Shown one piece after another: positions 1,366-46,100 of a stretch of 51,465 nt of DNA. Numbering within the stretch: the stretch's first letter is position 1; the number at the start of each line of letters is the position of its first letter. Where the stretch lies: IMG/VR virus record IMGVR_UViG_3300035010_000021, positions 1-51,465 of that record. One strand, written 5' to 3'. Under the pieces are notes generated by a model. That model had not been told where the DNA came from and made no database searches. It saw only the letters and a program-made list of their open reading frames with translations. Origin of the DNA: a virus. A program made the position numbers and the translations under genes.

Positions 1366-1712
1366 AGGACACCATTCGCGTCTGCATCGATCACCAGGAA
1401 CGCCCGACCCCGTTGATCTTCACGATGGCGTTTCCCGGAGCCGAATACTGGTGCCCATTCTGCGGCTACCAGAGCGGAATGCTCGGAGCCGGAGAGCGGA
1501 TCGAACTCACGCCCGAACTGGTCAGGCGGGCCGAGGCAGATGAAGTCTTGGCGCGCCCTTACCTGAACGCCAGAGCTTGGCGAAGCTGCTCTACGCTGGA
1601 GTACCAGGGCAGGTCAATCAAGCCCGAGGAACTGCCACGGGAAGAGAAGGACAAGCACCTGAAGGCGTTGGCAGAGTGGCGACTGTTGGCAGTACAGGAG
1701 ATCCCTGCATGA
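1362..1712 (+). CDS. Small protein with one CxxC zinc-knuckle motif
   Basis: A 116-residue protein with YWCPFCGYQSG around residue 30, the usual form of half a zinc ribbon. No second CxxC pair follows, so metal binding would need dimerisation or other ligands. The remaining part is charged and helical (residues 45-110). Proteins of this shape (FPGxxYxCPFCG) are widespread in phage accessory regions, without a known function. ATGA overlaps join it to both neighbours. Confidence 0.7.
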   Translation: MKDTIRVCIDHQERPTPLIFTMAFPGAEYWCPFCGYQSGMLGAGERIELTPELVRRAEADEVLARPYLNARAWRSCSTLEYQGRSIKPEELPREEKDKHLKALAEWRLLAVQEIPA

Positions 1713-2398
1713 AGGCCCGACCGATTCTCATGTCCGCACCAATGATCCGCGCCCTGCTCGACGGCAAGAAGACGCAGACGCGGCGGATCGTAAAGTCGCA
1801 GCCTCAAGGCCGACTGCTGGGGCTATTGGAGCGCCCGATTCGGTCGATGGCGGACGAACCGGTCTTGCGTGCATGGTTCGGAGCAAGTGAAGCCGAAAAC
1901 TCATCGAAGGAAGTGACCTGCCCCTACGGCAAGCCCGGCGACCTGCTCTGGATTCGGGAGGCGTTCATCGATGATCGCGATGAGTACGACTACGCACTGT
2001 CGTCGGCTGCGCCTTACTATAAGGGCGCCGGCATCATCTTTCGCGCGGACGTCGATAGTGATTCTGACCCTGCCGAGGGCTGGAAGCCATCGATTCACAT
2101 GCCCCGCTGGGCCTCCCGCGTGACGCTGGAACTGATTGAGGTGCGCGTTGAGCGGCTGTGGGACATCTCGGAAGCCGATGCCCTTGCCGAGGGGGTCAAC
2201 ATCCAACTCCCGATGTTCGACGCCGAGCAATACGACGCGGCGGGCATGAAAGGTAACGTCTACCGCGAGCAGTACCGTAAGGTCTGGGAATCGATCAACG
2301 GACTCGACTCCTGGGACGCCAATCCCTGGGTCTGGGCGCTTTCGTTTGACGTCCATCGCTGCAACGTGGACGAATTGTTCCAAGCGAGGGTCGCGTGA
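1709..2398 (+). CDS. ASCH/PUA-like phage protein
   Basis: A 229-residue protein opening with KARPILMSAPMIRALLDGKKTQTRR, the signature of a common phage family with an ASCH-like (PUA-fold) core. That core carries the loop TQTRR, GKPGDLLWIRE at about residues 75-85 and the conserved end NPWVWALSF. ASCH domains are thought to bind RNA or modified bases. This gene is roughly twice the length of the other ASCH gene here (5431-5790), having an insert with a metal-site-like HMPRWASR segment. ATG start overlapping the previous stop; its own TGA overlaps a GTG at 2395. Confidence 0.85.
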   Translation: MKARPILMSAPMIRALLDGKKTQTRRIVKSQPQGRLLGLLERPIRSMADEPVLRAWFGASEAENSSKEVTCPYGKPGDLLWIREAFIDDRDEYDYALSSAAPYYKGAGIIFRADVDSDSDPAEGWKPSIHMPRWASRVTLELIEVRVERLWDISEADALAEGVNIQLPMFDAEQYDAAGMKGNVYREQYRKVWESINGLDSWDANPWVWALSFDVHRCNVDELFQARVA

Positions 2399-10634: not shown

Positions 10635-10898
10635 ATGACGACACCCGCAATCAAGCTCAGAGACGGCACAATGCAAGTCACGATCTGGCGCAACACCAGC
10701 ACTTCCGGACAGACCTACTACTCGGTCAACCCGACCAGAAGCTACCGCCAAGGCGACGACACCTGGAAGGAGACGGATCAGCTCCACGCGGACGACTTGC
10801 TCGGAATGGCCGAGCTGCTCCGCGAGGCTTATGCCTGGGTCAAGATGCAGAAGCGAGCCGACGCGAAGGGCCGCAAGGAGTCCCAGCAGGCAGCGTGA
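10635..10898 (+). CDS. Small plasmid/phage-type protein (87 aa)
   Basis: An 87-residue protein with the pattern QTYYSVNPTRSYRQGDDTWK followed by DQLHADDLLGMAELLREAYAWV. This layout (strand pair with an aromatic YYSV, then GD-x-W and a helix) belongs to a family of short proteins found on plasmids and integrative elements; its function is unknown. Good ribosome binding site AGAAGGAG 6 bases before the ATG. It is followed by a perfect hairpin (10906-10929), so it may form its own transcript. Confidence 0.75.
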   Translation: MTTPAIKLRDGTMQVTIWRNTSTSGQTYYSVNPTRSYRQGDDTWKETDQLHADDLLGMAELLREAYAWVKMQKRADAKGRKESQQAA

Positions 10899-15164: not shown

Positions 15165-15492
15165 CCGACCCCACTACCCCGTCACGCGGATGAAGCACCA
15201 TTCGCTGGTTCCACGTCAGCTGCTGCCCGATCTTCTCCAGCACGTCTTCCTTGCCCGTAACCCGCACCAGGAACGACCCGTCGTTCACCGTGTCGAACTT
15301 GAACCGCAACATCCCGTCGTCCAGCTGCACCTGGCCATCGATGGCCCCGTACAGAATGCCCCGGCGGGTGCCGTCGTCGAACCGGACCCACACCCCGGCG
15401 TAGGCCCCCTTGTTGCTGGCCATGCCGCACCGGTCGGACTCTTCCGTCTCGGCTTCAGGCGTTGCCGCCCCACGGATCTCACGCGCGTTCAA
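15136..15492 (-). CDS. Small protein downstream of the relaxase
   Basis: A 118-residue protein whose start is a TTG at 15492, chosen because AGGAGG lies 7 bases upstream and no ATG or GTG fits as well; an internal ATG at 15426 is the alternative. The N-terminus is acidic and flexible; residues 40-118 are beta-rich (AYAGVWVRFDDGTRRGI, DGQVQLDDGMLRFKFDTV, MVLHPRDGVVGSVTVEKV), fitting a small barrel. It overlaps the relaxase end by 14 bases and is therefore coupled to it. Possible relaxosome accessory protein, by position only. Confidence 0.65.
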   Translation of the reverse strand: MNAREIRGAATPEAETEESDRCGMASNKGAYAGVWVRFDDGTRRGILYGAIDGQVQLDDGMLRFKFDTVNDGSFLVRVTGKEDVLEKIGQQLTWNQRMVLHPRDGVVGSVTVEKVEAS

Positions 15493-18325
15493 GACTGACC
15501 TCCTGTTGCTTCCCCATGACGGCATCGCGGGCGATACTGAGGCCTTCTCGCAGCCGAGCCAAGTGTTTTCTCAATCGGGATCGCACTTTCTTCGCGCGAA
15601 TACGGACGAGGTCAACCGCATGGGGCCGGTCGTCCTGCTTGTGGATCGCCTGCCGCGTCGCATCCCGGTCATCCACGTACAGCACAGCCTTCTGCCGTCC
15701 CCGGCTGGCAGAGACGTAGAGCTGGGATGCGGACACGGCGGGGAGGTTCTGGCTGGTCATGTCCACCAGCACGACGTCCACAGTCCGGCCCTGCGAAGCG
15801 TGGCTGGTCGAGACGTAGCCGTGAGCAAGATGGCCGACGCCCTCAGGAAGGATTCGTTCCGCTCCCGAAACGGTCCGCACCTTGATCCCGTCGTCGGTGA
15901 AGCCGGAGACGGTGAGCATCGTGCCGTTGTCGATCCGCTTGCCGGAAACGTCTTTCACGCCCGCGGTGGTGCGGATCCGGTCACCGGGGGCGAGGGCGAG
16001 CGTGTCCTGACGGTACGCCCCGAAGCGGGTGAGCAGAACATCCGGCTCGGGGTGTTTCCGAGCTTCCCGGAGCTGAGCCTCGGTGTAGTGCAGAGGCACC
16101 AGTTGCTTGAACTGCCGGTCCTCGCCGAGTTTGCCGTCGGCGCGAAGCCGGTCCCGAATCGCCGCGTTCAGCTGGTCGCCGGCGGCGTGGGTGGGGCTGA
16201 TGACTAGGGCGGACTTGCCCTCGGCCAGCGCGGTCAGGTAGTCGTCCACCAATTCGAGGTGTCCCTCGGAATGGTCCTTCACCCACCCCAGCGCGTCGAG
16301 CCGGTCGAAACCCTTCGCCACGTTCCCGGCCGCCAGCGCCTCAACCGCCTTGCGGTACTCCCCGGCCTGCCGCTTGATCTCCGCCACCTCGATCACCGGG
16401 ATGCCCTTGTCCTCCAGGAGGGAAAGGACGTCACCGCGGACGGGGCTCTTATGCTGCCGGCGGTCTCCAAGCAGGAGGATGCGGGCGTTCAGTTGGTCGG
16501 CTAACTTGGTGAGCCTGGCGACGTCCTTCATCCCTGCCATTCCGGCCTCGTCCAGAACGATCAGGCCACTTCGAACGCTGTCCTGCATTTCTTTCGAACC
16601 GAGGAACTTCGCCAGCGTCTCGGCGTGGTCGAAGCCCGACTCCCTCAACTCGCCGCGCGAAGCCGTGACGGACGGGGCCAGGATCACCCAGGGGTCACGG
16701 ACGTGGGGCATGACCGCCCGGAGCATGGTGGACTTCCCGGACCCAGCGACCCCGCGGACGACGATCAGCCGGTCGGGCGAGGTGAGGGCGTGGCGGGCGG
16801 CAAGCTGCTGGGAGGGCGAGAGAACCATTTTCCTGGCGTCAGGAACATGGTTCCCCTGCGGGGATGACGAGAGCACGATCATCTTGTCGGCGCCGACAAA
16901 ATGATCCGGTGGCGCGCCAGGGGCGTTGTGTTCTGGTTTCGGCGAGTTCTGGGACACAACGGGTTTTGTGTTCTGGTTTCGGTCAACAACGACCGAATCA
17001 GCCGCTTGCGGGGAGGGAGAAAGAGTGATAGTGTCCGGTTTGGTTGCGTCGGCGTGGAAAGCAGACACGCTCACGGGAGCACCCCTAACCCAGTAGTCGC
17101 GGGGGTCTTGTTGCCGCATAGCCGGGGTAGCGTCCGGCACGCGACCAATACCCAACGGCACGAACCGCCCCCGCCCTTCCCGGGCGAAGTCGAGCAGAGC
17201 CTTCTCCTCGGCCAGCACCCCCTTCGTGGTGATGACCGTCCGCTCCCCCTGTTCCCGTCGGATCAGGCCGGGGCGGGATAGCTCGCGGGCGACGGCTTCG
17301 GGCGAGACGGCCGTCGGGTCGAACCGGAGAGCCTCGGTCATCACCTCGCGCTGATCCACCACCGAGCGGCGTTCCGTCAGGTGACTGACTGCGTAGGTGA
17401 GCGCCTCCGCTGACCGGTCTTCACGCGCCAGGGGCAGGTCGGCTCCTTCGACCGTGTCCCGCACCGCCCGGAGTTCGTCGTTCGTCAGCCGCCCGGCCCA
17501 GTGGACCAGCAGGGACTCCCACGACTGCCCTTCCTTCTTCGCCTCCCGTGACGTCGCCCCCAGCTTCGCCTTCGTCTCCGGCCGGGTGATCCCCAACTGA
17601 TCGGCCAGATTGTCGATCTGCGCGGTCCGTCGGCTAAACTCCTCCCGCACCCGCGCCGGGATGCCGACCACCTCGAAGTCGCCCGCCTTGGCCTTCAGCT
17701 CATACCCGAGGCCCTGTAGCTCCGCCGCCAGCCGAGAACGGAACACCGCCTGGAAGTACGGCCCGTCCTTCTTCAGGTCGCCGAACTGCCCCGCCTTCCA
17801 CTGCCCCTCCTGGTCGTCCCAGGTGAGCGAGAACGCGACCGCGTGGATGTGCAGCTGGGGGTCGGGGTAGCCGCCGATCGGACGGGACGTGTTGTGGACG
17901 AAGTCGCACCAGACCATGTTCCCCGTCGGCCGGTCGAAGTCCGCCCGCCGCTTCCGCACCCGCGTTTTCATCTCCCGCTCGACCTCGCCCATCGTCGCCG
18001 CCACCGCCACCCGGAACGCGTCGGCGATCCGCCCGTCGCCACCGACTGCGTGCAGGACGGACACGGACTTCGGGACTGAGAAAGTGAAGTCGTACCCGAC
18101 TCGGCGCTCGCCCTTCGCCGCCGTCAGCTTCTGCCCCCGGACGGGGTGGAGGTTGTCGCACAGGTAGTCGAACGCCCGCTTCTCGACCCGGCCGGACAGG
18201 CTGAGCATGGGGGCGGCCTGGCCGTGCCAGTACGCCTCCAGCTCCTGGCCGTCGATCATGTAGTCGGCGACCGAGAAGTAGGCTTTGCAGGCGGCGGAGT
18301 TAGCGATCTCGTTTATGCGGAGCAC
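15479..18325 (-). CDS. MobF-family (TrwC-like) relaxase-helicase
   Basis: A 948-residue protein from a GTG at 18325, chosen because TrwC-type proteins begin right there (LRINEIANSAACKAYF). N-terminal relaxase domain: candidate catalytic Tyr16 and Tyr22, the strand DFTFSVPKSVSV (79-90), and the metal-binding His triad H144, H159, H161 (FVHNTSR, DPQLHIHA). C-terminal superfamily 1 helicase: Walker A GVAGSGKST (525-533), Walker B LIVLDEAG (D592 E593), and later motifs with HASQGRT near the end. It would nick one strand at an oriT, stay bound through tyrosine and unwind DNA for transfer or rolling-circle replication. No T4SS or coupling protein is in the window, so it may use a helper. Confidence 0.93.
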   Translation of the reverse strand: MLRINEIANSAACKAYFSVADYMIDGQELEAYWHGQAAPMLSLSGRVEKRAFDYLCDNLHPVRGQKLTAAKGERRVGYDFTFSVPKSVSVLHAVGGDGRIADAFRVAVAATMGEVEREMKTRVRKRRADFDRPTGNMVWCDFVHNTSRPIGGYPDPQLHIHAVAFSLTWDDQEGQWKAGQFGDLKKDGPYFQAVFRSRLAAELQGLGYELKAKAGDFEVVGIPARVREEFSRRTAQIDNLADQLGITRPETKAKLGATSREAKKEGQSWESLLVHWAGRLTNDELRAVRDTVEGADLPLAREDRSAEALTYAVSHLTERRSVVDQREVMTEALRFDPTAVSPEAVARELSRPGLIRREQGERTVITTKGVLAEEKALLDFAREGRGRFVPLGIGRVPDATPAMRQQDPRDYWVRGAPVSVSAFHADATKPDTITLSPSPQAADSVVVDRNQNTKPVVSQNSPKPEHNAPGAPPDHFVGADKMIVLSSSPQGNHVPDARKMVLSPSQQLAARHALTSPDRLIVVRGVAGSGKSTMLRAVMPHVRDPWVILAPSVTASRGELRESGFDHAETLAKFLGSKEMQDSVRSGLIVLDEAGMAGMKDVARLTKLADQLNARILLLGDRRQHKSPVRGDVLSLLEDKGIPVIEVAEIKRQAGEYRKAVEALAAGNVAKGFDRLDALGWVKDHSEGHLELVDDYLTALAEGKSALVISPTHAAGDQLNAAIRDRLRADGKLGEDRQFKQLVPLHYTEAQLREARKHPEPDVLLTRFGAYRQDTLALAPGDRIRTTAGVKDVSGKRIDNGTMLTVSGFTDDGIKVRTVSGAERILPEGVGHLAHGYVSTSHASQGRTVDVVLVDMTSQNLPAVSASQLYVSASRGRQKAVLYVDDRDATRQAIHKQDDRPHAVDLVRIRAKKVRSRLRKHLARLREGLSIARDAVMGKQQEVSLERA

Positions 18326-18657
18326 GGCGCCCCCGCAGTCCGCGAGCAGGTGGCTCCGCCCCCTCGCCTCCAAGCCCCTCGCGGCGCTCGCCCGGCGGCT
18401 CCGCTCCGGAAGCCAGACACCACCTGCGCGACGACTCGCACGGCTCGCCTGCTCCGGTAGCCGTCTGTTCCCTCCGCTCCGGGGCTTTCCGGCTCACCCC
18501 CGCGTTCGCCACGTGGCAGAAGGTCAGGACGGCTTCGCCCGCCCGACCTTCGAGAACGATTTGAGTCATTGAGCTCTGGCGGAAAGCGTGATACCCAGGA
18601 CGGGCCGGGAGTGAACGTCCCGGCCCGATACATCAACCTACGTGGAAAGGCAAGGTG
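18326..18657. other. Divergent spacer with oriT-like hairpin
   Basis: 332 bases between the leftward relaxase and the rightward methyltransferase. Bases 18330-18500 are a Pro/Arg-coding-like, GC-rich stretch related loosely to the structured spacers. Bases 18601-18627 are a perfect 10-bp inverted repeat, CGGGCCGGGA and TCCCGGCCCG with a 7-base loop. MobF relaxases recognise an inverted repeat next to their nick site and usually act close to their own gene, so this is a candidate oriT; it could also be an operator or attenuator. An 89-codon frame (18300-18569, minus) is judged unlikely to be real. Confidence 0.5.
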
Positions 18658-20019
18658 ATGCAGAATGACCCTACACCCATTTCGACACACGGCGCAAGCC
18701 CGCTGATCTACGGCTCGGTGTGCAGCGGCATCGAGAGTGCCACCGTGGCTTGGCATCACCTCGGCTGGAAGCCCGCGTTCTTCTCGGAGATCGACCCGTT
18801 CCCCCGGGCGGTTCTCCAGCACCATTACCCCACCGTCCCCCTTCACGGGGACTTCACCACCATCCAGGAGGATGACTATGCAGCTCTCGATCTTCTCGTC
18901 GGCGGAACCCCCTGCCAGTCCTTCAGCGTCGCGGGCCTTCGCAAGGGGCTTGCTGACGAGCGAGGCAACCTCACCCTTGAGTTTGTTCGGCTGGCTGAGG
19001 GGCTTCGCCCCCGCTGGGTGGTTTGGGAGAATGTCCCCGGCGTCCTGTCCCAGGACCGGGGACGGGCGTTTGGCTCCTTCCTCGGGGGGCTGGCGGAACT
19101 CGGGTATGGGTTCGCCTACCGGGTTCTTGACGCTAGGCATTTCGGAGTGCCCCAGCGCCGCCGTCGCGTCTTCGTTGTCGGACATCTTGGAGACTGGCGA
19201 CCTGCCGCCGCGGTACTTTTTGAGCCCGAGAGCCTGTGCCGGGATCTTGCGCCGGGCCGCGAGGCGGGGGAAGGCGCTGCCGCCGGCCCTCCACTCCGCG
19301 CTGGAGGCAACCGCACGGGCGGAGGTCGATCGCCAGGAACCGACGTCGACACCGCTGAAAGCCTGATCGCTTTCCCGGCGACGATGAGCGGCACTCAGCG
19401 AGCCAGCTCGTGGGACGTTTCGCCCTCGCTCGGGGCGAGCAACCCGACGGCGGTGGCCCGCTGCCGGCGTGGCGGCTCGAACCGACAGGACGGGACGGCG
19501 AACGCCATCCTGACATCGAACGGGGGCCGCGCCGGGATCGGAGTCGGAGCGGTTGCCTACCGTGTTCACGGCGAGCACAGCACGGCCATGACGGGCAACG
19601 GCGTGGCCAACGTCGCCGACCCGGTGGACGTGGCCCGGTGCCTGGACACGTGCGGCGGGTACTCGACCAACCAGGGCGGGAATGTGGTCGCCCAGGCCTT
19701 CCAGCAGAACACCCGTGACGAGCTGCGGTACGTCGGCGGGGACGGGAGAATCGCCGGGGCGCTGGCCGCCGAGCCGGGGATGAAGCCGCAGAACTTCGTT
19801 CAGCAGCTGCTGGCCGTCCGCCGCCTCACGCCACGGGAATGCGAGCGACTCCAGGGCTTCCCGGACGACTACACGCTGGTCCCGTACCGGGGCAAGCCTG
19901 CCGCCGACGGCCCCAGGTACAAGGCACTCGGGAACTCGATGGCCGTGCCGATCATGCGATGGCTTGGCGAGCGGATCAACGAGGTGGATCAGCTGGTCAT
20001 CCTGTACGACCCCGGGTAG
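18658..20019 (+). CDS. DNA (cytosine-5) methyltransferase
   Basis: A 453-residue C5 methyltransferase, starting at ATG 18658 (a GTG three bases before is an alternative). Motif I YGSVCSGIESATVAWHHLG, motif IV GGTPCQSFSVAG with the catalytic Cys, motif VI WENVPGVL, motif VIII RRRVFVVG, and motif IX-X RRLTPRECERLQGFP and YKALGNSMAVP. A long target-recognition region (about residues 200-380) lies between VIII and IX. No restriction enzyme is adjacent, so it is solitary: it probably protects phage DNA from host nucleases or marks it. It diverges from the relaxase across 18326-18657 and ends before a terminator-like hairpin. Confidence 0.95.
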   Translation: MQNDPTPISTHGASPLIYGSVCSGIESATVAWHHLGWKPAFFSEIDPFPRAVLQHHYPTVPLHGDFTTIQEDDYAALDLLVGGTPCQSFSVAGLRKGLADERGNLTLEFVRLAEGLRPRWVVWENVPGVLSQDRGRAFGSFLGGLAELGYGFAYRVLDARHFGVPQRRRRVFVVGHLGDWRPAAAVLFEPESLCRDLAPGREAGEGAAAGPPLRAGGNRTGGGRSPGTDVDTAESLIAFPATMSGTQRASSWDVSPSLGASNPTAVARCRRGGSNRQDGTANAILTSNGGRAGIGVGAVAYRVHGEHSTAMTGNGVANVADPVDVARCLDTCGGYSTNQGGNVVAQAFQQNTRDELRYVGGDGRIAGALAAEPGMKPQNFVQQLLAVRRLTPRECERLQGFPDDYTLVPYRGKPAADGPRYKALGNSMAVPIMRWLGERINEVDQLVILYDPG

Positions 20020-20247: not shown

Positions 20248-20790
20248 TTAGACGGGGTTGAGGTAAGCGAACTCGCCCCACCTAGCGAGCACGAAGTCGT
20301 TGTACGCTTTCGCGGCGGCAACCTCGTCAGCAAACGTTCCGAGATAATGCTGTTCGCCACGCACCCGCGCGATCACCTGCCACTTTGTGGTGTTGGTGCA
20401 GCGGTACACCCCCTTGTATCTGGTAGGCTTTCCCTTGGCTGGTCGGCGATTCATGTTGTTCTGGCTTTTAGTGCACAGTCGAAGATTCGACCGCCGGTTG
20501 TCCAGCGTATTGTGGTTTCGATGATCCACATCCAGGTGTCGTGGGGCATCCAAAATAAAGCGGTGCATTATCAGCATTGTCTTTACCGGGCGGCAAGATC
20601 GAGTGCGCCCCGTGTCAGCCGGGGCAATGACGCGCCCGTCGAGGATGTGCCACTGATAGGACAGCAACCCATCGAGCAAATCGGCATCGATCAGGACTGA
20701 GCCACCCCGATGCAGGAGCAAGCAACAAGCACCGGTGTAATCTTCCTCGTTGCCCTTGGCGGCGGACGGGTCTATGCTCTCGGCAGTCAT
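20248..20790 (-). CDS. HNH endonuclease with AP2 domain
   Basis: A 180-residue protein in the layout of phage homing-type endonucleases. Residues 20-60 form a start domain (LIDADLLDGLLSYQWHI); residues 75-115 hold the HNH core (MHRFIL, DVDHRNHNTLDNRRSNLRLC); residues 125-170 form an AP2 DNA-binding domain (RYKGVYRCTNTTKWQVIARV, YLGTFADEVAAAKAYND). Such genes cut DNA at intron or intergenic sites and spread by homing. It is separated from the operon upstream by about 98 bases and has GAAGGA before its ATG. Freestanding, not in an intron as far as can be seen. Confidence 0.92.
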   Translation of the reverse strand: MTAESIDPSAAKGNEEDYTGACCLLLHRGGSVLIDADLLDGLLSYQWHILDGRVIAPADTGRTRSCRPVKTMLIMHRFILDAPRHLDVDHRNHNTLDNRRSNLRLCTKSQNNMNRRPAKGKPTRYKGVYRCTNTTKWQVIARVRGEQHYLGTFADEVAAAKAYNDFVLARWGEFAYLNPV

Positions 20791-22127: not shown

Positions 22128-22795
22128 GACTGGTTTCCTTTGCTTGTTGGTAACACCCGTTTTAAACGCACACCACAACTTACTGGAGTTGTGACCGCTA
22201 GCTCTTCCGGCCAGCCGGCGCGAATCCTGCCTCGCACGCGGGAATGACTGATGCCAAAAAGGTCACACGCTTCCGCCAGAACAAGACGCCGGCCGCCGAT
22301 GTCGACATATGCGTTGTTGGTCTTATTGCGTCCTTGCTCCTTGGCTGTAGCCCGGCGGCAGTTGCCGGGCTCGTAGCCTCGCGAATTGTCGATCCGGTCA
22401 ATGCTGTGTGACGGTGTCGGCCTTGGCCCCATGTCTGAGAAGAAATTTTCGAACGCGCGCCATCGCTCGCACACGGCGACTCCGCGTCCGCCATACGTGG
22501 CGTACCCGCGGGAGTTTGGGTTGCCACAGCGGGTCAGCATGGACGCCCAGGTGCGATACTCGGGCGTCCACTGGCCCGGCCTGGATTGCCCGTGCGTTGT
22601 CGCCAGCAGTTTGGCGCGCTCCCGGTGGTAGCAGCCACAACTGGTGGTCAGTCCGCGGCGGAGGTTGTTGCCGTACGCGACCGAGTAGCCGCCGCAGTCG
22701 CACCGGCATCGCCACTTCGAGTTCCAGTTCGCACCCTGGCCGGCAAACTCCAGCACGACGAGGCGGCCGTATCTCTGTCCAGTCAAGTCCTTCAT
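22124..22795 (-). CDS. HNH/AP2-related phage protein
   Basis: A 223-residue protein: LTGQRYGRLVVLEFAG, zinc-knuckle-type CRCDCGGY and CGCYHRER, then YRTWASMLTRCGNPNS, YATYGGRGVAVCERWRAFEN and SIDRIDNSRGYEPGNCRRAT. This is the family of phage proteins related to HNH homing nucleases with a start domain like AP2-type modules; many may be inactive nucleases or regulators. C-terminal helices could bind DNA (LVLAEACDLFGISHSRVRGR). It sits within the leftward operon, coupled by ATGA on both sides, as if captured without breaking expression. Confidence 0.85.
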   Translation of the reverse strand: MKDLTGQRYGRLVVLEFAGQGANWNSKWRCRCDCGGYSVAYGNNLRRGLTTSCGCYHRERAKLLATTHGQSRPGQWTPEYRTWASMLTRCGNPNSRGYATYGGRGVAVCERWRAFENFFSDMGPRPTPSHSIDRIDNSRGYEPGNCRRATAKEQGRNKTNNAYVDIGGRRLVLAEACDLFGISHSRVRGRIRAGWPEELAVTTPVSCGVRLKRVLPTSKGNQS

Positions 22796-23226
22796 GCTAA
22801 CCGCCCCTCATCCGGGAGCGGAATCGCGATCCCGAGTACCTCGGCGCTCCACGCGATCACGGCATCGACATACTTCCCGAACTCCGAGGTTGAGAGATGT
22901 CGAGTAGAACCGGTCGCGTTCAGCACCTCCCCGTCGGGAGTGACGAGTACCTGGCGAAGCTTGCCGACATGCTGTTTGCAGAAGAGATGAATGTCCTCTG
23001 AGTCGACCAGATTGCCATGCCGGCGAAACTCCGCGACGATAGGCGGGTAGACTACGCCCCAGAGGTACGCGTTAGCGCTTGTGCTACGCTTCCTCTTTGC
23101 CTCCTTCACCGTGACCACTACACGCTTGCCGTCTAGTCGACGGATGGCCTCACCGATGCGGCGGGCGTCGCGGTCGGGCAACCGGCCGTCCACCACCGGG
23201 GCGATGAACTCCAGCGCGGCGGTCAC
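22792..23226 (-). CDS. Putative recombination-associated protein (NinB-like)
   Basis: A 144-residue protein from a GTG at 23226. RRLDGKRVVVTVKEAKRKRS followed by TSANAYLWGVVYPPI resembles the recombination proteins of NinB/Orf type and their relatives, whose pattern is basic strand, RS-x-x-QN-x-Y-x-WG. The end LSTSEFGKYVDAVIAW, LGIAIPLPDE is the usual finish of this phage family. It may bind single-stranded DNA and assist annealing. The assignment is by pattern only; it could be another phage family with the same outline. Confidence 0.65.
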   Translation of the reverse strand: MTAALEFIAPVVDGRLPDRDARRIGEAIRRLDGKRVVVTVKEAKRKRSTSANAYLWGVVYPPIVAEFRRHGNLVDSEDIHLFCKQHVGKLRQVLVTPDGEVLNATGSTRHLSTSEFGKYVDAVIAWSAEVLGIAIPLPDEGRLA

Positions 23227-23597
23227 GGGTCGCTCCGATGAAGCCCGAACGGCAGGGTGACGTCGTGAAGAACCCACAGGTGGTAGGCGTTTGCCGCGTC
23301 GACCAGCTGTGGGTGGGGTGGAAACACCTCCACCGCGAGCTTGTCATACCCCGCCAGCTTGTTCTTCATCGCCTGCTTGTCGGCCCACGGGATGTCGGAG
23401 TTGTCCCGGTTCCGAATGAAGAGGTGTGTGACCCGGCCCCAGTCCGTCTGGATGTCTCTCGCTAGCACCGCGTAGTGGCCGTTCTCCCAGGCCCGGTCCA
23501 TCTCGCGGCACCAGCCCTCGCCGTGCCCGAGGGCGGCAGGTGTTTCCTTCCGGGACCGGAACGGCCGGTTGGCCTTGCTCGTCAGGGGGAGGGTCAT
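23223..23597 (-). CDS. Phage hypothetical protein (DUF7694-like)
   Basis: A 124-residue protein: YAVLARDIQTDWGRVTHLFI, DIPWADKQAMKNKLAG, AVEVFPPHPQLVDAANAYHL. The layout (a strand pair, an acidic helix and an ending with L-V-D-x-A-N-x-Y-H-L-W-V-L) is that of a small phage family near replication and recombination genes. Function unknown. ATG overlaps the preceding gene stop. Confidence 0.7.
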   Translation of the reverse strand: MTLPLTSKANRPFRSRKETPAALGHGEGWCREMDRAWENGHYAVLARDIQTDWGRVTHLFIRNRDNSDIPWADKQAMKNKLAGYDKLAVEVFPPHPQLVDAANAYHLWVLHDVTLPFGLHRSDP

Positions 23598-24034
23598 GCG
23601 ACGCTCCTCAGCCGCTTCCGGTACGGCTCACACAGGTCGACCACCCGCCGACAGGTCTCCACGTCGAACATCCCGATGTGGCAGTCCTCGAACGGGATGC
23701 CGAGTTGCTCCGCCAGCCACCGGTAGCCCGACCCCCGGGCGTAGTGCTTCCGGTACTCGGGCCCACGCTCCGCTCGCCGTTCCTCCAGCTTCCGCTGCCA
23801 TAGGGGGTCGAACGCGGCGTGCGCCCGCCGCTTCCACCGCCGCAGTTCCTTGTCTGCCAACCGTCCCAGCGGATTCTCGGTCCCCGGGTGACAGCCGACG
23901 TAGGCATCGCACGCGGGGTAGCGGGCGCAGGCCCAGAAGGGTCGATAAGCCAGGTCGGGCCAGCGGTCACCGTAGATGGAAAAGCCAAGAACCTTTTCCA
24001 CGGGGGAGGCGCAATACGGGCAGGGGCCGGTCAC
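23594..24034 (-). CDS. DUF3268-like zinc-finger protein
   Basis: A 146-residue protein from a GTG at 24034. CPYCASPVEKVLGFSIYG and FWACARYPACDAYVGCHP give the paired CxxC and C-x-C-type zinc ligands of the DUF3268 family. The rest is KELRRWKRRAHAAFDPLW, GYRWLAEQLGIPFEDCHIGM and DVETCRRVVDLC. This layout is usual in phage DNA-metabolism operons; the zinc part suggests DNA binding. Upstream residues of the same frame belong to other genes and were left out. Confidence 0.85.
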   Translation of the reverse strand: MTGPCPYCASPVEKVLGFSIYGDRWPDLAYRPFWACARYPACDAYVGCHPGTENPLGRLADKELRRWKRRAHAAFDPLWQRKLEERRAERGPEYRKHYARGSGYRWLAEQLGIPFEDCHIGMFDVETCRRVVDLCEPYRKRLRSVA

Positions 24035-24519
24035 CGCCGCCTCACGGCGAGGGCGATGCCGCCGTTGCCCAGCGTCACCCCCGGCACCTCGACACCCGCC
24101 TTGAGGGCGTCCGAGATGGCCGACCGGCTGACCTTCCGCTCCGTCTTCCAGTAGGCGTCCGGCAGGATCGACTCGTCGATGTGGGCGATCCCCGGCCCCT
24201 TCAGCGACACGGAGAGTGTGGCCTCCGGCCGCCGGAGTGACTTCTGGCCCGATGCGCCCATACACAGCAGCAGCGCCGAGCGAAGCCGGTCCTGCCGGTT
24301 GACACAGGCGGCCTTCCGCTCGCCGAGGGCCTTCACCCGGGCGGCGATGGCCTCCTCCAGGCACTCCTCGTCGGCGAGCCGGCCGAGCAGCCAGTCCACG
24401 ATCTCGAACAGGCCCGTCTGCCCCTCGATCACGTCGTGCAGCAGGTCCGGGTCGTCGCTGCCGAGCAGGGCGCGAATGTCCGCCACCTTGCCCAGCTCCA
24501 GTTGCAGGTTCCCCGACAT
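24031..24519 (-). CDS. Siphovirus Gp157-like protein
   Basis: A 162-residue protein starting SGNLQLELGKVADIRALLG. It has a long acidic helical section (residues 35-95, IAARVKALGERKAACVNRQD) and the Gp157 end: RRPEATLSVSLKGPGI, ILPDAYWKTERKVSRSAISD, ALKAGVEVPGVTL. Gp157 proteins lie beside SSB and recombination genes in siphophages and were first linked to phage resistance when expressed from plasmids. The start ATG shares a base with the preceding stop (TGATG). Confidence 0.9.
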   Translation of the reverse strand: MSGNLQLELGKVADIRALLGSDDPDLLHDVIEGQTGLFEIVDWLLGRLADEECLEEAIAARVKALGERKAACVNRQDRLRSALLLCMGASGQKSLRRPEATLSVSLKGPGIAHIDESILPDAYWKTERKVSRSAISDALKAGVEVPGVTLGNGGIALAVRRR

Positions 24520-26763: not shown

Positions 26764-26956
26764 CGCCTACGCCAAGCAGCTGCGGGGCCACAGGGCCGAC
26801 ATGCTGACCGCGGCCGACATGGGCGTCCTCCAGCTTTGCTGGGAGGAGATCCGCACCCTGACGCAGCGGGTGGCGGCCCTGGAGGCGGAGAACAAGGACC
26901 TCAAGTCGTTCCGCCATCAGGCGACCAACCGCGAGACGTACGGTCCGCTCGGATGA
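26735..26956 (+). CDS. Small helical protein (73 aa)
   Basis: A 73-residue protein: VARADAYAKQLRGHRADM, LTAADMGVLQLCWEEI, LTQRVAALEAENKDLKSF. The last part is a coiled coil (heptads L-V-L-N-L). GAGGGGAGGG precedes the ATG. It overlaps the RHH gene by 29 bases and the DUF1064 gene by ATGA. Perhaps a partner of one of them. Confidence 0.6.
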   Translation: MEFPHVARADAYAKQLRGHRADMLTAADMGVLQLCWEEIRTLTQRVAALEAENKDLKSFRHQATNRETYGPLG

Positions 26957-27321
26957 GGTTCGGGAAGGGCGGCCGCCCGAAGTACGGCAACACGAAAGTG
27001 GTCTTTCAGGGCGCGGCTTTCGACTCGATTCTGGAGCGCGACCGCTGGCTGTTCCTGCTCGACATGGAGCGGGAAGGGAAGATCACGAAGCTCCGACGCC
27101 AGGAGCACATCGCCCTGAAAGGGCCGGACGGGTCGACCGTCTGCGTCGTCATCCCTGACTTCAGCTACTACCACCTCGCCGCCGGCCGGGTCGTCCGCGA
27201 GGACACCAAGGGTGTCCTGACCGACGTGTTCCGGGTGAAGGCCAAGCTCTACCGGGCGAACTTCGCCGACGACATCCACATCGTGACCAAGAAAACGCTG
27301 ACGGAGCTGCCATGCGGGTGA
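26953..27321 (+). CDS. DUF1064 nuclease-like protein
   Basis: A 122-residue protein: KYGNTKVVFQGAAFDSILER, RDRWLFLLDMEREGKITKLR, VVIPDFSYYHLAAG, REDTKGVLTDVFRVKAKL. It matches DUF1064, a small phage PD-(D/E)xK-type family; Glu in SILER, Asp in IPDFSY and Glu-x-x-Lys in REDTKG are the likely active site. Such proteins may be Holliday-junction or other DNA nucleases. It has a typical place in phage replication operons. Start by ATGA overlap. Confidence 0.88.
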   Translation: MRFGKGGRPKYGNTKVVFQGAAFDSILERDRWLFLLDMEREGKITKLRRQEHIALKGPDGSTVCVVIPDFSYYHLAAGRVVREDTKGVLTDVFRVKAKLYRANFADDIHIVTKKTLTELPCG

Positions 27322-27818: not shown

Positions 27819-28277
27819 ATGCCCACCTATTCCGAACGATTACGCGACCCCCGCTGGCAGAAGAAGCGGCTGGAGATCATGCAACGGGACGGCTTCGCCT
27901 GCACACTCTGTCAAGACGAAAGAGCCACCCTCAACGTCCACCACTGCTACTACGAGCAGGACCGAGACCCGTGGGACTACCCCGACACGTCGCTCCTCAC
28001 CCTCTGCCAGCCGTGCCACGAGAAGGAGACCCACTTCCTCAAGGTCATGAAGCGCGGCCTGGCGATCGAGCTGGGCAAGCTCGGGGCCAGGAGCGTCCAC
28101 TACTACGAGCTGGCGATGGCCTTCGCCCGCCTCGACCCGAAGCGGCTGGACCAGGCGGTCTGGTTCGTCGGGTTCTTCCTGACCGACACCGACTTCCAGG
28201 GCAAGTTCTTTCGCGAACTCGACCTCGCCCGCCCCGCCGACGCGCAGGAGGTGCCGCCGTGCCCACCTACCGCGTGA
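27819..28277 (+). CDS. HNH endonuclease-like protein
   Basis: A 152-residue protein with the zinc-type HNH layout: DPRWQKKRLEIMQRDGFACT, CTLCQDERATLNVHHCYY, DTSLLTLCQPCHEKE. Catalytic His pair in VHHCYY, ligands CxxC and CxxCH. A helical C-terminal half follows (residues 80-150). Could be a homing or DNA-processing nuclease; it lies at the head of the replication genes with its own structured leader. The start at 27819 was taken because a strong CAGGAGG site lies 4 bases upstream. It overlaps the next gene by 19 bases. Confidence 0.85.
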   Translation: MPTYSERLRDPRWQKKRLEIMQRDGFACTLCQDERATLNVHHCYYEQDRDPWDYPDTSLLTLCQPCHEKETHFLKVMKRGLAIELGKLGARSVHYYELAMAFARLDPKRLDQAVWFVGFFLTDTDFQGKFFRELDLARPADAQEVPPCPPTA

Positions 28278-28984
28278 AGAACTGGGACAGGTTCCAGCAC
28301 TACAAGGACCGCACCCCACCCTGGATCCGGCTGCACCGCGGCCTGCTGGACGACTACGAGTTCCACTGCCTGCCGGACGCTAGCAGGGCGCTAGCGCCCT
28401 GCCTGTGGCTGCTCGCCAGCGAGAATCCGGACCCGTCCCGGGGGGAGATCGCGGCCGCCGACGAGAAGATCGCGTTCCGCCTGCGGATGCCCGTCCGGAA
28501 GTTCCAGGACGCCGTCAAGCCGCTGATCGAGCACGGCTTCTTCGAGATGGAGCGTGACGCTAGCGAGGTGCTAGCGGACGGTCCGCACGGCGCTACCCCA
28601 GAGGCAGAGACAGAGGCAGAGGGAGAAGTGCACACCCCGCGCGGGCGCAAGACCCGGATCGGACTTGAGGACCTGTCCGTCGATCACATCGCCGACTGGC
28701 TAGCCCGGAAGCGTGCCGAGGGGAAGTACCTCCGGCACGACGAGCACTTCGTGCTTGAGCAATTCAAGGACTACTGCACATCGAAAGGAAAGACCTATGT
28801 CGACTACATCGCTGCTTACCGCGGAGCCTTCGAGTGGGACCGCTGCCGGCCCCGCCCACAGCACCAACATCAGCTACGGCCCGGGAACGCCGCACTGGGC
28901 CAGGCCGCCCGCCCCGGCAGCAAGGCCGACCGAACTCGTGCCGCCATCGAGCAGGCCCTCCTCGACCTTGGCCACCAGCCTTGA
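28259..28984 (+). CDS. Phage replication protein with N-terminal winged helix
   Basis: A 241-residue protein from a GTG at 28259; GTG 28274 is an alternative. NWDRFQHYKDRTPPWIRLHR, GLLDDYEFHCLPDASRALAP and KIAFRLRMPVRKFQDAV are the start of the O-like replication-initiation family, in which a winged helix binds the phage origin. The middle is acidic and flexible, and a second domain follows (IADWLARKRAEGKY, HDEHFVLEQFKDYCTSKGK). The gene holds internal GACGCTAGC/GCTAGC repeats (28378-28400, 28557-28576). The last 188 bases also encode the start of the next gene in another frame. Confidence 0.75.
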   Translation: MPTYRVKNWDRFQHYKDRTPPWIRLHRGLLDDYEFHCLPDASRALAPCLWLLASENPDPSRGEIAAADEKIAFRLRMPVRKFQDAVKPLIEHGFFEMERDASEVLADGPHGATPEAETEAEGEVHTPRGRKTRIGLEDLSVDHIADWLARKRAEGKYLRHDEHFVLEQFKDYCTSKGKTYVDYIAAYRGAFEWDRCRPRPQHQHQLRPGNAALGQAARPGSKADRTRAAIEQALLDLGHQP

Positions 28985-31654: not shown

Positions 31655-31728
31655 CCGACCCGTACAAGTCCCTCCACGACCACCTCAAGAAGCTCGCCAT
31701 CCCCGAGCGCCCGAAGAAGCCCCAGTGA
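31651..31728 (+). CDS. 25-residue basic peptide
   Basis: A 25-codon frame, TDPYKSLHDHLKKLAIPERP and a KKPQ end, basic and helical. ATG overlaps the preceding stop and its TGA overlaps the GTG of the small terminase. Such small peptides before terS are common, with unknown roles. Confidence 0.4.
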   Translation: MTDPYKSLHDHLKKLAIPERPKKPQ

Positions 31729-32264
31729 CCGGGCTGACGCCGCGCGTCGAGCGGTTCGTCCGGGAGTACCTGATCGACCAGAACGGAACCCAGGCCGCCA
31801 TCCGCACCGGGTACAGCGAACGGACCGCCGCCCAGCAGGCGTCCCGACTGTTAACCAATGCGAAGGTTTCCGCCGCCATCGTCGACGGGCAGAAGTCCGT
31901 GGCCGAGCGGCTCGGGATCACCGCCGAGCGCGTCCTGACCGAGTACGCCCGCCTCGCCTTCCTCGACATCCGCAAGGCGTTCGACGAGGACGGCCGGCTC
32001 AGGCCGATCCACGACCTCGACGACGACACCGTCGCCGCCGTCAGCGGCATCGAGGTGGAGGACCTGTACGAGGGCAAGGGGGCGGACCGCGAGCACGTCG
32101 GCCGCCTCCACAAGCTCAAGCTCAGCGACAAGAAGGCCGCGCTCGACAGCCTCGCCAAGCACATCGGCCTGCTCAAAGACGGCCACCCCGGCGGCCTGAC
32201 GCTCAACCTCGCCGGGCAGGTCCACGTGTACCTTCCGGACAATGGCCGCGACCGGCGGGATTAG
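31725..32264 (+). CDS. terS: Terminase small subunit
   Basis: A 179-residue protein of the Terminase_2 (XtmA-like) family: TPRVERFVREYLIDQNGTQA, AIRTGYSERTAAQQASRLL, NAKVSAAIVDGQKSVAERLG. The N-terminal HTH recognises the packaging site; the central helices form a ring. The rest is ERVLTEYARLAFLDIRKAF, DKKAALDSLAKHIGLLKD. It selects phage DNA and loads the large subunit. GTG start, coupled; overlaps the TerL gene by 23 bases. Confidence 0.92.
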   Translation: MTGLTPRVERFVREYLIDQNGTQAAIRTGYSERTAAQQASRLLTNAKVSAAIVDGQKSVAERLGITAERVLTEYARLAFLDIRKAFDEDGRLRPIHDLDDDTVAAVSGIEVEDLYEGKGADREHVGRLHKLKLSDKKAALDSLAKHIGLLKDGHPGGLTLNLAGQVHVYLPDNGRDRRD

Positions 32265-33606
32265 GCCCCAACCCGGCCCCCAAGAGGTCTTCCTCGCCAC
32301 CCCGGCGGACGTCGCCATCTACGGCGGCGCGGCGGGCGGGGGCAAGAGCTTCGCCCTCCTGCTGGAGCCCACCCGGCACCTGAAGAACCCGGGCTTCGGC
32401 GCGGTCGTGTTCCGCCGCCAGTCCACCGACATCACCAAGGAGGGGGCGCTCTGGGACGAGAGCCAGCCGCTCTACAAGGCCCTCGGCGGCGTCCCCCGCG
32501 AGGGCAAGCTCGACTGGTCCTTCCCGTCCGGGGCGGCCGTCAGCTTCTCCCACCTGGAGCACGAGAACGACAAGTACAGCTGGCAGGGGGCACAGGTCCC
32601 GCTGATCGCCTTCGACGAGCTGACCCACTTCACCCGGTCGCAGTTCTGGTACATGTTCAGCCGGAACCGCTCGACGTGCGGCGTCCGCCCGTACGTCCGG
32701 GCCAGTTGCAACCCCGACCCCGACTCGTTCGTGGCCGGGCTGGTGGAGTGGTACATCGACCCCGAAACCGGGTACGCCGTCCCCGAGCGGAGCGGCGTCA
32801 TCCGGTACTTCGTCCGCCACGGCGAAGACCTGATCTGGGCCGACCACCCGCACGCGCTGCTCGACCAGTTCGCCGAGCTGACCCCTCACGACGTCAAGTC
32901 GTTCACGTTCGTCGCCTCCAGCGTCTTCGACAACAGAATCCTGTTGGAGAAGGACCCCGGCTACCTGGGCAACCTGAAGGCCCAGGACCACGTCAACCGG
33001 GAGCGGCTGCTCAAGGGGAACTGGAAGATCCGGCCGGCGGCGGGACTGTACTTCAAGCGCCGCTACTTCGAGGTCGTCGACGTCGCGCCGGCCCAGGCCC
33101 GCCGCGTCCGCCACTGGGACCTGGCCGCCACCGAGGCGAAGCCCGGCACGGACCCCGACTGGACCGTCGGCCTGCGGCTGTCCCGGGACGAACACGGCAC
33201 CTTCTACGTGGAACACGTCGAGCGGTTCCGCGGCAGCCCCCAGCGGGTCGAGGCCGCGATCCTCAACACCGCCGCCGCCGACGGCCCCGCCGTCACGGTC
33301 AGCCTGCCGCAGGATCCGGGGCAGGCGGGCAAGGCGCAAGCGAAATACCTCGTCGGCCGGCTGGCCGGCTACCCCGTCCGGGCCGAACGCGAAACAGGAG
33401 ACAAGGTGACACGAGCCATGCCCGCATCCGCCCAGGCCGAGGCCGGGAACGTCAAGATCGTCCGAGGGGCGTGGAACGACGCCTTCCTGGCCGAGTTGGA
33501 GAACTTCCCCTCGCCGAACGCCAAGGACGACCAGGTCGACGCCCTGTCCGGGGCGCTCAACGCCCTCGTCGGGCGGCCCGTCACGCCGTCGCTCCGGAGC
33601 CTGTAG
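32242..33606 (+). CDS. terL: Terminase large subunit
   Basis: A 454-residue ATPase-nuclease. Walker A AIYGGAAGGGKS (residues 25-36), Walker B LIAFDELTHF (about 122-131), coupling motif near SCNPDPDS; nuclease domain from about residue 290 with HWDLAAT, PQDPGQAGKA and KDDQVDALSGA giving the acidic residues. It drives DNA into the prohead and cuts it. The C-terminal TIGR01630-type nuclease is typical of HK97-like and GTA-like phages. It starts inside the TerS gene and ends next to the portal start. Confidence 0.96.
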   Translation: MAATGGIRPQPGPQEVFLATPADVAIYGGAAGGGKSFALLLEPTRHLKNPGFGAVVFRRQSTDITKEGALWDESQPLYKALGGVPREGKLDWSFPSGAAVSFSHLEHENDKYSWQGAQVPLIAFDELTHFTRSQFWYMFSRNRSTCGVRPYVRASCNPDPDSFVAGLVEWYIDPETGYAVPERSGVIRYFVRHGEDLIWADHPHALLDQFAELTPHDVKSFTFVASSVFDNRILLEKDPGYLGNLKAQDHVNRERLLKGNWKIRPAAGLYFKRRYFEVVDVAPAQARRVRHWDLAATEAKPGTDPDWTVGLRLSRDEHGTFYVEHVERFRGSPQRVEAAILNTAAADGPAVTVSLPQDPGQAGKAQAKYLVGRLAGYPVRAERETGDKVTRAMPASAQAEAGNVKIVRGAWNDAFLAELENFPSPNAKDDQVDALSGALNALVGRPVTPSLRSL

Positions 33607-34923
33607 GTGCGGCTGTTCCGCCGCAAGGACGCGGCCCCGCCGGCCACCAAGGCGGCGTCGTACTTCTTCTCCCTCGCCGCCCGCAAGGGCGGGCTGACGG
33701 GGGCGGCGTTCGACCAGCTGGCCGCCGAGGGGTACGCCGAGTCGGTCGTCGCCTTCGCCTGCATCAACCGCATCGCCTGGGCCGTCGCGTCCGTCGAGCC
33801 GCAGCTCTACCGGAAGACCGGCCGCACGCTCACCCGGATCGACGAGCACCCGCTGCTCGACCTGATGGGGCGGCCGAACCCGGCCCAGTCGGGTCGGGAG
33901 TTCATGGCCTGGCTGGCCGCCTACCACCAGCTGTCCGGGAGCGCCTACGTCTTCGGCAACGGCATGGACGGGCCGGCCCCCCGCCGGCGGGGCGGCGCAA
34001 CGGTGGGCGAGCTGCAGTTGCTCAACCCGGGCAAGGTGCAGGTGGTCAAAGGCGAGGGCTTCTTTCCCTCGGCCTACGAGTACCGGCCCGACGCCTCGAA
34101 GCTCCTCACCTACCCGGTGGACCAGGTCACCGGGCGGTCCGCGGTCCTCCAGGTCAAGTCGTTCCACCCGCTCAACCCCTGGTACGGCCTCAGCCCGCTG
34201 GAGCCCGGGGCGCTGGGGGTGGACATCCACACCGGCGGCCAGCGGTGGAACAAGGGGCTGATCGACAACGGCGCGCGTCCCTCCGGCGCGCTGGTCGTCA
34301 AGACCGCCGAGGGGCAACCTGCCACACTCACCGACGACCAATACCTCCGGCTCAAGGAGATGATCGACCAGCAGTTCGGGGGCACCCGCAACGCCGGCCG
34401 GCCGATGCTTTTGGAAGGGGGTCTGGAGTGGCAGGAGATGTCCCTCAACCCGAAGGACATGGACTTCCTGAGCGGCAAGCACAGCGCGGCCCGGGACATC
34501 GCACTGGCCTTCGGGGTGCCGCCCCAGCTGCTCGGGATTCCAGGGGACTCGACGTTCTCCAACTACGAGCAGGCCAAGCTCGCCTTCTGGACGGACACTG
34601 CGATCCCGGCCCTCACCCTGTACCTGGAAGCGTTCAACCGCTGGCTGGTGCCACTGTACGGGGACGACCTGTACCTGTGGTACGACGAGGAGATGGTCCC
34701 GGCCCTGGAGCCGCTCCGCAAGGAGAAGGCCACCCGGATCAACGCGGCCGAGTACATGACGATCAACGAGAAGCGGCGGGCGATGGGCCTGGGCGACATC
34801 GAGAACGGCGACACCCTGCTGGTCGCGTCGTCCGACGTGCCGCTCGACCTGGTCGGGGCGGTGCCCCTGGCCGAACCGGACAGCCCGGCGGATCAGGGGA
34901 CATTGGAAGAAGAGGACGAGTGA
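33607..34923 (+). CDS. Portal protein (HK97 family)
   Basis: A 438-residue HK97-type portal protein with a GTG start directly after the TerL stop. Features: FACINRIAWAVASVEPQLYR near residue 50, HPLLDLMGRPNPAQSGREF, FHPLNPWYGLSPLEPG, RDIALAFGVPPQLLGIPG, and STFSNYEQAKLAFWTDTAIP. Twelve copies form the ring at the capsid vertex through which DNA passes. The final acidic tail (PADQGTLEEEDE) is variable. The next gene starts by GTGA overlap. Confidence 0.95.
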   Translation: MRLFRRKDAAPPATKAASYFFSLAARKGGLTGAAFDQLAAEGYAESVVAFACINRIAWAVASVEPQLYRKTGRTLTRIDEHPLLDLMGRPNPAQSGREFMAWLAAYHQLSGSAYVFGNGMDGPAPRRRGGATVGELQLLNPGKVQVVKGEGFFPSAYEYRPDASKLLTYPVDQVTGRSAVLQVKSFHPLNPWYGLSPLEPGALGVDIHTGGQRWNKGLIDNGARPSGALVVKTAEGQPATLTDDQYLRLKEMIDQQFGGTRNAGRPMLLEGGLEWQEMSLNPKDMDFLSGKHSAARDIALAFGVPPQLLGIPGDSTFSNYEQAKLAFWTDTAIPALTLYLEAFNRWLVPLYGDDLYLWYDEEMVPALEPLRKEKATRINAAEYMTINEKRRAMGLGDIENGDTLLVASSDVPLDLVGAVPLAEPDSPADQGTLEEEDE

Positions 34924-35132: not shown

Positions 35133-35323
35133 GCCGCGTGATCTACGCCGACTTCGTCCCGCGGGAAGCACCGGCGATCCGAATTGCGAGCGAGGTGCTG
35201 TACGCTGACGACCATGTCGTCCTGGTCCGCTTCCGCTGCGGGTTCGGCGACGACGTGCTGACCACCCACTTCCTCGCCCACCGCAGGAACGTGCGAGTCG
35301 AGTTGGTCCCGGTCGATGCCTGA
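35129..35323 (+). CDS. Small beta-rich protein (64 aa)
   Basis: A 64-residue protein: VIYADFVPREAPAIRIASE, VLYADDHVVLVRFRCGFGDD, VLTTHFLAHRRNVRVELVPV. Regular strands; no family. Overlaps the head morphogenesis gene by 8 bases. Might be a head accessory protein. Confidence 0.6.
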   Translation: MSRVIYADFVPREAPAIRIASEVLYADDHVVLVRFRCGFGDDVLTTHFLAHRRNVRVELVPVDA

Positions 35324-36119: not shown

Positions 36120-36134
36120 CAGGCAAGGACGCCC

Positions 36135-36794: not shown

Positions 36795-36802
36795 GCAATT
36801 TT

Positions 36803-38125: not shown

Positions 38126-38138
38126 CCTCACCTCCGCC

Positions 38139-38168
38139 CGACGGCCGGCGGCTCGGCGCCGGCCGTCG
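38139..38168 (+). terminator. Perfect hairpin after the capsid gene
   Basis: CGACGGCCGGCG (38139-38150), loop GCTCGG, CGCCGGCCGTCG (38157-38168): a perfect 12-bp stem. Followed by CACGTTTC, not a true T-run. It may stabilise capsid mRNA 3' ends or slow transcription, so that capsid protein is made in excess over later genes. Confidence 0.6.
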
Positions 38169-38199
38169 CACGTTTCAACCTCGCAAGAAAGGACTCCCC

Positions 38200-38640: not shown

Positions 38641-38647
38641 CCGGGAC

Positions 38648-45975: not shown

Positions 45976-46100
45976 CCCACGCCTGGGACGGCTACGCCAA
46001 GGCCAAGGGGATCGTGAAGCCGTTCGACGAGTCGAAGTACCCCGACCGCGACAGCCGGGAGGAGTTGCACCAGAAACTGAGGTCCCGTGGCGACGCTTGA
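45879..46100 (+). CDS. Frameshift extension of the tail chaperone (gpGT-like)
   Basis: In the -1 frame relative to 45523, with no ATG or GTG start in the region: ARFPWAEYQELALGVLRW, PPDAFWQSNVWEMTHAWDGY, AKAKGIVKPFDESKYPDRDS, REELHQKLRSRGDA. The W-x-E-Y-x-E-L-x-x-G-V-L-R and P-x-x-F-W patterns are those of tail assembly chaperone C-terminal parts. The shift probably lies in CCGGCCCGCCCGCTTCCCC (45875-45893). It ends inside the tape measure start, as in lambda-like phages. Confidence 0.75.
   Translation, partial: PARFPWAEYQELALGVLRWPPDAFWQSNVWEMTHAWDGYAKAKGIVKPFDESKYPDRDSREELHQKLRSRGDA

Follow-up and report, generated by a model that had tools for sequence, protein, structure and literature searches.

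A conjugation-type relaxase-helicase in tailed-phage genomes: mobilization or replication?

Gene transfer by phages and by conjugative elements is usually regarded as following separate routes, and what a relaxase of the conjugation type may do inside a phage genome is the question raised by the IMG/VR record IMGVR_UViG_3300035010_000021. This 'linear' contig of 51,465 nt, analysed at its full length and called the window below, may lack sequence past both ends. It encodes a MOBF (TrwC/TraI-type) relaxase-helicase together with the structural proteins of a tailed phage. A preliminary description of the DNA offered three meanings: a phage-plasmid that can also be mobilised, a prophage with a captured mobilisation module, or a relaxase used for phage replication.

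The relaxase-helicase and the phages that carry it

The coordinates under which the gene had been described (15479-18325) stood, and its strand has to be given as minus, since the plus frame contains stops and the minus frame is open; translation from the GTG at 18325 begins MLRINEIANSAACKAYFSVADYM. The product matches the Pfam family TrwC (PF08751) with 219 bits (cut-off 25) and the NCBIfam models MobF NF041492 (173.5, cut-off 100) and relax_trwC (172, cut-off 145.5), and its helicase part matches AAA_30 (PF13604) with 130 bits. The two tyrosines, the His triad and the helicase that had been noticed from the letters alone were recovered with every motif that was checked: in an alignment of 77 full-length homologues Y16, Y22, H144, H159 and H161 are invariant, with little variation at K531 (Walker A), D592-E593 (Walker B), Q845 and R875. 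An AlphaFold2 (AF2) model (pLDDT 84) matched TrwC (1omh, TM-score 0.86) and TraI (5n8o, E 8e-34) in Foldseek. In a structure search of BFVD, most of the matches listed are named RecD/Dda-type helicases, none is named a relaxase and one is unnamed. The Phage_GPA family (P2-type gene A) is not among the Pfam and PHROG matches of the relaxase at E<=0.01.

The late block of the window holds, by PHROG assignment, a large terminase subunit (TerL), portal, HK97-type major capsid protein (MCP), tape measure and tail fibre, the gene set of a tailed phage (siphovirus), and the head-tail module mentioned in the preliminary description extends from the small terminase subunit to the tail fibre (31725-51465). 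Relatives of the relaxase were obtained with alignment queries, and relatives of the phage also with portal and MCP queries; queries with one relaxase protein at a time gave no matches among viral and genome contigs, nor did an alignment query among viral contigs.

Two relatives are collinear with the window. The first, G037, is a Planctomycetaceae metagenome-assembled genome (MAG) with a prophage-like region at 301-361 kb of its contig C1 (361 kb), of which 290-361 kb was compared with the window. The gene order there is integrase, type IV coupling protein (T4CP), ParB, a small gene, relaxase, HNH, NinB, Gp157, ERF, TerL, portal, MCP and tail. The relaxase is 44% identical to that of the window over its full length, the tyrosine integrase gene (C1 301003-302421) overlaps a tRNA-Ser, the T4CP is VirD4-like, and the ParB-T4CP pair lies immediately left of the small-protein gene. 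The second relative, G465, is an IMG/VR contig of 56,678 bases that was found by a portal-alignment search and has a MOBF relaxase as well. In window orientation its left part holds integrase, T4CP, ParB, small protein, relaxase, HNH and YqaJ, and its right part TerL, portal, MCP, tape measure, tail fibre, a methylase-helicase and a second T4CP; identity to the window is 65% for the small protein, 63% for the portal, 47% for the MCP and 51% for the tail fibre. BLAST on G465 had suggested that T4CPs are absent from the phage lineage, which was overturned by Pfam: the T4CP beside the integrase matches PF02534 with 236 bits. The order integrase, T4CP, ParB, small protein, relaxase, early genes, terminase and portal is common to G037 and G465, and the order small protein, relaxase, early and packaging genes to all three assemblies, in which the relaxase also has the same orientation and place between the small marker gene and the recombination and packaging genes.

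The collinearity bears on the suspicion that the window is a chimeric assembly, or a degraded plasmid or other element beside an unrelated prophage. Such an origin would fit the GC content, which in the left arm (0.57-0.70) is somewhat below that of the structural arm (0.66-0.75), and the likeness of small left-arm genes to those of non-phage elements. However, collinearity from relaxase to terminase recurs in the MAG contig and in the second IMG/VR contig, with about 60% identity of structural proteins, and since these are independent assemblies, a chimera or a pair of adjacent elements is ruled out as the source of the relaxase-phage linkage; as a general explanation of the window it is hardly credible. 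The presence of an intact conjugation-type MobF relaxase-helicase in a phage genome is confirmed by profiles, residues, fold and collinear relatives, and very probably we are dealing with a genuine phage lineage in which a MOBF relaxase is conserved. The window is most likely part of a temperate siphophage genome, of which the host, by inference, probably belongs to the Planctomycetota. Judged by its sequence, the left arm resembles mobilizable elements and the right arm a siphophage.

Kinship with mobilizable elements

The nearest relaxases are those of planctomycete elements and plasmids, and in a phylogenetic tree the three phage relaxases nest inside this plasmid/element clade. Similar ties exist for other genes. 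The T4CP of G465 is close (709 bits) to the T4CP beside ParB in L047. This mobile element has one of the relaxases most closely related to that of the window, and its contig has no phage MCP match. The integrase of G037 shows 57% identity to its counterpart in the relaxase element L050. Different T4CP subfamilies are represented in G037 and G465.

Phages and elements exchange genes, and the relaxases of the window and G037 are on long branches, which could be taken to mean that the gene is a recently captured or decaying passenger without a role for the phage. The open frame and all catalytic residues are nevertheless kept in three phages whose relaxases share 40-44% identity, with position and gene order conserved, and we regard a passenger gene as improbable.

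The survey for this relaxase in other phages that had been proposed for the locus was fruitful as far as the two collinear relatives are concerned; among 50,697 public phage records searched with tblastn, no bona fide phage with a MOBF match was found. The window relaxase gave four weak matches there and that of G465 two. The annotated match, 'Mycobacterium phage Adler' (KC960489.1/KF981876.1, L008), was rejected as a phage, being the plasmid pMAB02 without core phage genes (PMC5562415), and the others are unverified faecal scaffolds. Relaxases of the clade occur in 13 of 392 sampled genomes of the planctomycete phylum, with an adjoining capsid gene only in G037, and TrwC was found in none of 33 IMG/VR relatives of TerL, most of which are short or distant. 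The IMG/VR records G459 (L149) and G460 (L150) were considered as phage relatives and discarded, having no homologues of the structural genes of the window or G037. Both have a MOBF relaxase and a T4CP, G460 also a ParB, and they are probably plasmids or elements that have been registered as viruses.

Mobilization or replication

The lineage most likely consists of temperate phages that are also mobilisable by a helper conjugation system. Mobilization is favoured because T4CP and ParB adjoin the relaxase in two of the three members; whether it is the main selected role of the relaxase is, in our estimate, evenly balanced. Integrative and mobilizable elements (IMEs) are recognised by an integrase and a relaxase, with or without a T4CP, and by the lack of a full mating channel. 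The window, a fragment, has the relaxase only, and G037 and G465 have integrase, T4CP, ParB and relaxase. Among the three meanings offered earlier, a prophage with a captured mobilisation module fits best, with integrase, T4CP and ParB located beside the relaxase in both relatives. The term phage-plasmid in its strict sense received no support: a plasmid replication gene was not seen, ParB is limited to the relatives, and both of these have a tyrosine integrase. In the window itself, again as a fragment, ParB was not detected by profile and no plasmid replication gene was present among the annotated open reading frames.

The mobilization backbone of an IME (integrase, VirD4-type T4CP, ParB, small marker protein and MOBF relaxase) would thus be built into a siphophage genome. 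Once the phage genome has been excised and circularized, or injected DNA has become circular, the relaxase would nick one strand at a putative origin of transfer (oriT) and remain on its 5' end, and its own helicase would unwind the duplex. The nucleoprotein could then be passed on to the type IV secretion channel of a helper, by the phage's own T4CP in G037 and G465 and possibly by the T4CP of a co-resident element in the case of the window phage. In this way the phage genome would move by mating besides in virions, and rolling-circle copying could begin from the same nick in the donor, in the manner of NicK of ICEBs1.

Several observations weigh against mobilization. Profile searches of the 51.5-kb window did not find a T4CP, ParB or integrase, PF00589 (tyrosine integrase) included, and no mating-channel gene was identified in the window, G037 or G465; because of the latter, self-transfer is not proposed for any member. 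No attR was found for G037, where the 25-bp 3' end of the tRNA-Ser is a single site, and the limits of that element were consequently drawn from its synteny with G465. In the tree all three phage relaxases fall to one side of a branch that has weak support (52/86), a topology by which a single capture of the relaxase by phages is neither shown nor rejected. Furthermore, an inverted-repeat search and a comparison of upstream regions revealed no oriT, and the gap upstream of the relaxase is not conserved. This gap (18326-18657) had been put forward for nicking tests, and its candidacy as oriT is not supported by the comparison: it measures 332 bp in the window, its counterparts in the relatives measure about 132 and 88 bp, and no conserved repeat was found in it. 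In L044-L049, elements that are not phages and whose relaxases are closest to those of the phages, a partly conserved stretch (GGCTGGCTGCGG... GTTAACGAAT) is located about 100 bp upstream of the relaxase start, and may be a candidate oriT or operator; it is absent from the phages.

A last point on the same side is that the relaxases of the window and G037 are without the 2B-like insertion of the TraI signal domain. The segment between helicase motifs IV and V has 10 aa in the window, 15 aa in G037 and 29-59 aa in the other 75 aligned homologues, and these two relaxases are the only ones of the 77 that lack it. The G037 phage copy is also the sole one in the 392 phylum genomes that aligns unbroken to a profile of the two phage sequences. 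The family profile aligns the IV-V region to the TraI translocation-signal domain (TSA) crystal structure 4l0j, so that the loss falls in the 2B-like insertion, and the predicted strands of this segment are present in a model of the L047 relaxase and gone from the window model. In TraI the insertion belongs to the translocation-signal (secretion) domain, and the residues mutated by Redzej et al. fall largely in the adjacent 2B part (PMC3912908). The GDR motif of the domain is retained in the window relaxase. As a hallmark of every phage relaxase the loss is ruled out, since G465 retains the segment, and it points to altered coupling in two members rather than to a lineage-wide loss of conjugation.

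The main alternative is that the relaxase-helicase is a replication initiator, which would nick a phage origin and drive rolling-circle replication in the way of gpA, the HUH initiator of P2-type phages, though with a helicase of its own, or of NicK of ICEBs1, while conjugation is no longer, or not mainly, its task. The relaxase is conserved in all three members and a T4CP, of differing type, in only two; its gene is co-directional with an early recombination operon (NinB, Gam/Gp157, ERF); and the window model, with the 2B-like part of the signal domain lost as in G037, gives better matches to Pif1-type helicases than are obtained with the L047 model. The earlier remark that a DnaB-type helicase is missing was borne out, as no DnaB_C domain is found in the window record, and no other replication initiator or helicase was recognised in G037. 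Moreover, relaxase-driven autonomous replication is established for ICEBs1, where one relaxase serves both transfer and replication (PMC3542172; PMC5714925). On the other hand, T4CP and ParB are kept beside the relaxase in two of the three members, G465 retains the 2B-like segment, no origin was identified, and the window has a separate 'replication protein' (phrog_26426). The latter lies about 10 kb from the relaxase and is the single one of its kind, and the statement that the relaxase is a few kilobases from replication genes has to be modified, its neighbours being mainly recombination genes. For the lineage we consider an initiator role possible but less likely than mobilization; for the window phage, where a T4CP is not visible and the signal-domain insertion is gone, the replication-only view is still strong. 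Tentatively, a stable phage-IME fusion can be envisaged that spreads by virions and by helper conjugation, uses its relaxase for mobilization as well as rolling-circle replication, and has had its signal domain remodelled in the window and G037.

Neighbouring genes and comparison with known systems

The features of the window are collected in Table 1. At 1-10 kb, where G037 has its ParB-T4CP pair, other small genes are found, some of which are common to non-phage elements; the pair was either lost from the window phage or is located past the contig ends. The slot of the methylase gene at 18658-20019 holds an HNH gene in G037 and G465, and a T4CP, as found in this place in the plasmids K2D and Runella, is ruled out for it by the match to C5 methylases. 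The small protein MTTPAIKLRDGTMQVTIWRN... has no Pfam or PHROG match and recurs near planctomycete MOBF relaxases in L047, L049, L074, L075, L082, L083, L089 and L116; it is possibly a relaxosome accessory.

Table 1 Features of the 51,465-nt window (identities refer to homologues in the contigs named)
Feature	Position	Strand	Remarks
phrog_874-like gene	1709..2398	+	G465 homologue between integrase and T4CP
Small protein (MTTPAIKLRDGTMQVTIWRN...)	10635..10898	+	Adjoins MOBF relaxases in planctomycete elements and both related phages
Pentapeptide-repeat protein adjoining relaxase gene	14227-14988		Pfam 122 bits
MOBF (TrwC/TraI-type) relaxase-helicase, 948 aa	15479..18325	minus	GTG start at 18325; Pfam, NCBIfam, residues, AF2/Foldseek
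SF1B (superfamily 1B) helicase domain	15626..16774	minus	Pfam and motif mapping
Helicase motifs	Walker A 16727-16753; Walker B 16538-16555; III 16451-16468; V 15776-15805; VI 15695-15718	minus	
Site of lost 2B-like insertion	16013..16051	minus	10 aa, between motifs IV and V
HUH relaxase domain	17426..18325	minus	Y16/Y22 at 18260-18280; HxxxxxR...HxH at 17843-17896
Gap between relaxase and divergent methylase, 332 bp	18326..18657	.	One perfect 10-bp inverted repeat, 18601-18627
C5-cytosine DNA methylase, divergent from relaxase	18658..20019	+	Pfam DNA_methylase 190 bits
HNH/AP2 endonuclease	20248..20790	minus	Homologue adjoins relaxase in both relatives
NinB/Orf recombination mediator	22792..23277	minus	
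Gam/Sipho_Gp157-like protein	24031..24519	minus	
Holliday-junction resolvase-like (DUF1064)	26953..27321	+	
PHROG 'replication protein' (phrog_26426)	28259..28984	+	No homologue seen in G037
Terminase small subunit	31725..32264	+	
Terminase large subunit	32242..33606	+	64% to G037
Portal	33607..34923	+	60% to G037, 63% to G465, 92% to L145
Head morphogenesis protein	35316..36119	+	
Major capsid protein	36803..38125	+	64% to G037, 47% to G465
Tail tape-measure protein	46087..47847	+	
Tail fibre/J protein	49759..51465	+	Truncated by window end

Some further genes of the relatives deserve mention. TerL of G465 (reverse-complement 23675-25078) is of a different terminase family (best phrog_38) from that of the window (32242-33606), next to a portal that is 63% identical, which by sequence reads as a terminase swap within the lineage. 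G037 encodes a 2072-aa methylase-helicase with an intein (C1 309638-315856; L144 5639-11857), of which G465 has a 1792-aa homologue (reverse-complement 48514-53889; 66% over 1003 aa). Just downstream of its relaxase, G037 also has a gene for a DisA-like (DAC) protein with DACNH/DACNG sensor domains (C1 320301-321755; L141 10302-11756), possibly for nucleotide signalling or defence. In IMG genome 2548877000, three contigs (L200, L201, L202) have portals 67-69% identical to that of the window; these may be several related prophages in one host and a possible experimental system.

Virion-borne transfer and conjugation would be seen combined in a single element in a phage lineage whose relaxase is conserved and of which two of the three members also have T4CP, ParB and integrase. 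Whether mating can mobilise a tailed phage, or a relaxase of conjugation can become an initiator of phage replication, is thereby made directly testable. The lineage also exposes a pitfall, as sorting tools based on relaxases and those based on capsids would class the same element differently.

The window relaxase shares with TrwC of R388 and TraI of F/R1 the HUH domain, His triad, catalytic tyrosines, C-terminal SF1B helicase and fold, but it is encoded by a phage, has a disordered linker of about 100 aa (395-498), has lost the 2B-like insertion and is not accompanied by genes for a type IV secretion system. IMEs and plasmids of Planctomycetota, Bacteroidota and Verrucomicrobiota (L042-L054, pK2D_1, Paludisphaera PALBO2, Runella pSP2_3) have the nearest relaxases, with 36-55% identity, and in many cases the same companions, i.e. 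small protein, ParB, VirD4-type T4CP and tyrosine integrase; in contrast to the phages, no structural genes were recognised in the contigs checked, and all retain the 2B-like insertion. Phage-plasmids (P1-like and others) are likewise phages with plasmid-type functions, and ParB is present in two relatives of the window phage. They seldom carry a relaxase, and in a survey of P1-like phage-plasmids a relaxase or oriT was found in only two (PMC10879196). The present lineage differs in the conservation of its relaxase and in the tyrosine integrase encoded by the relatives of the window phage, and a plasmid replicon was not observed in it. 'Phage Adler', listed with a putative relaxase and a VirD4-like gene, was reinterpreted as a plasmid (PMC5562415). 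With gpA of P2-type phages and NicK (MOBT) of ICEBs1, which belong to different protein families, the likeness is confined to a proposed activity, the start of replication by strand nicking.

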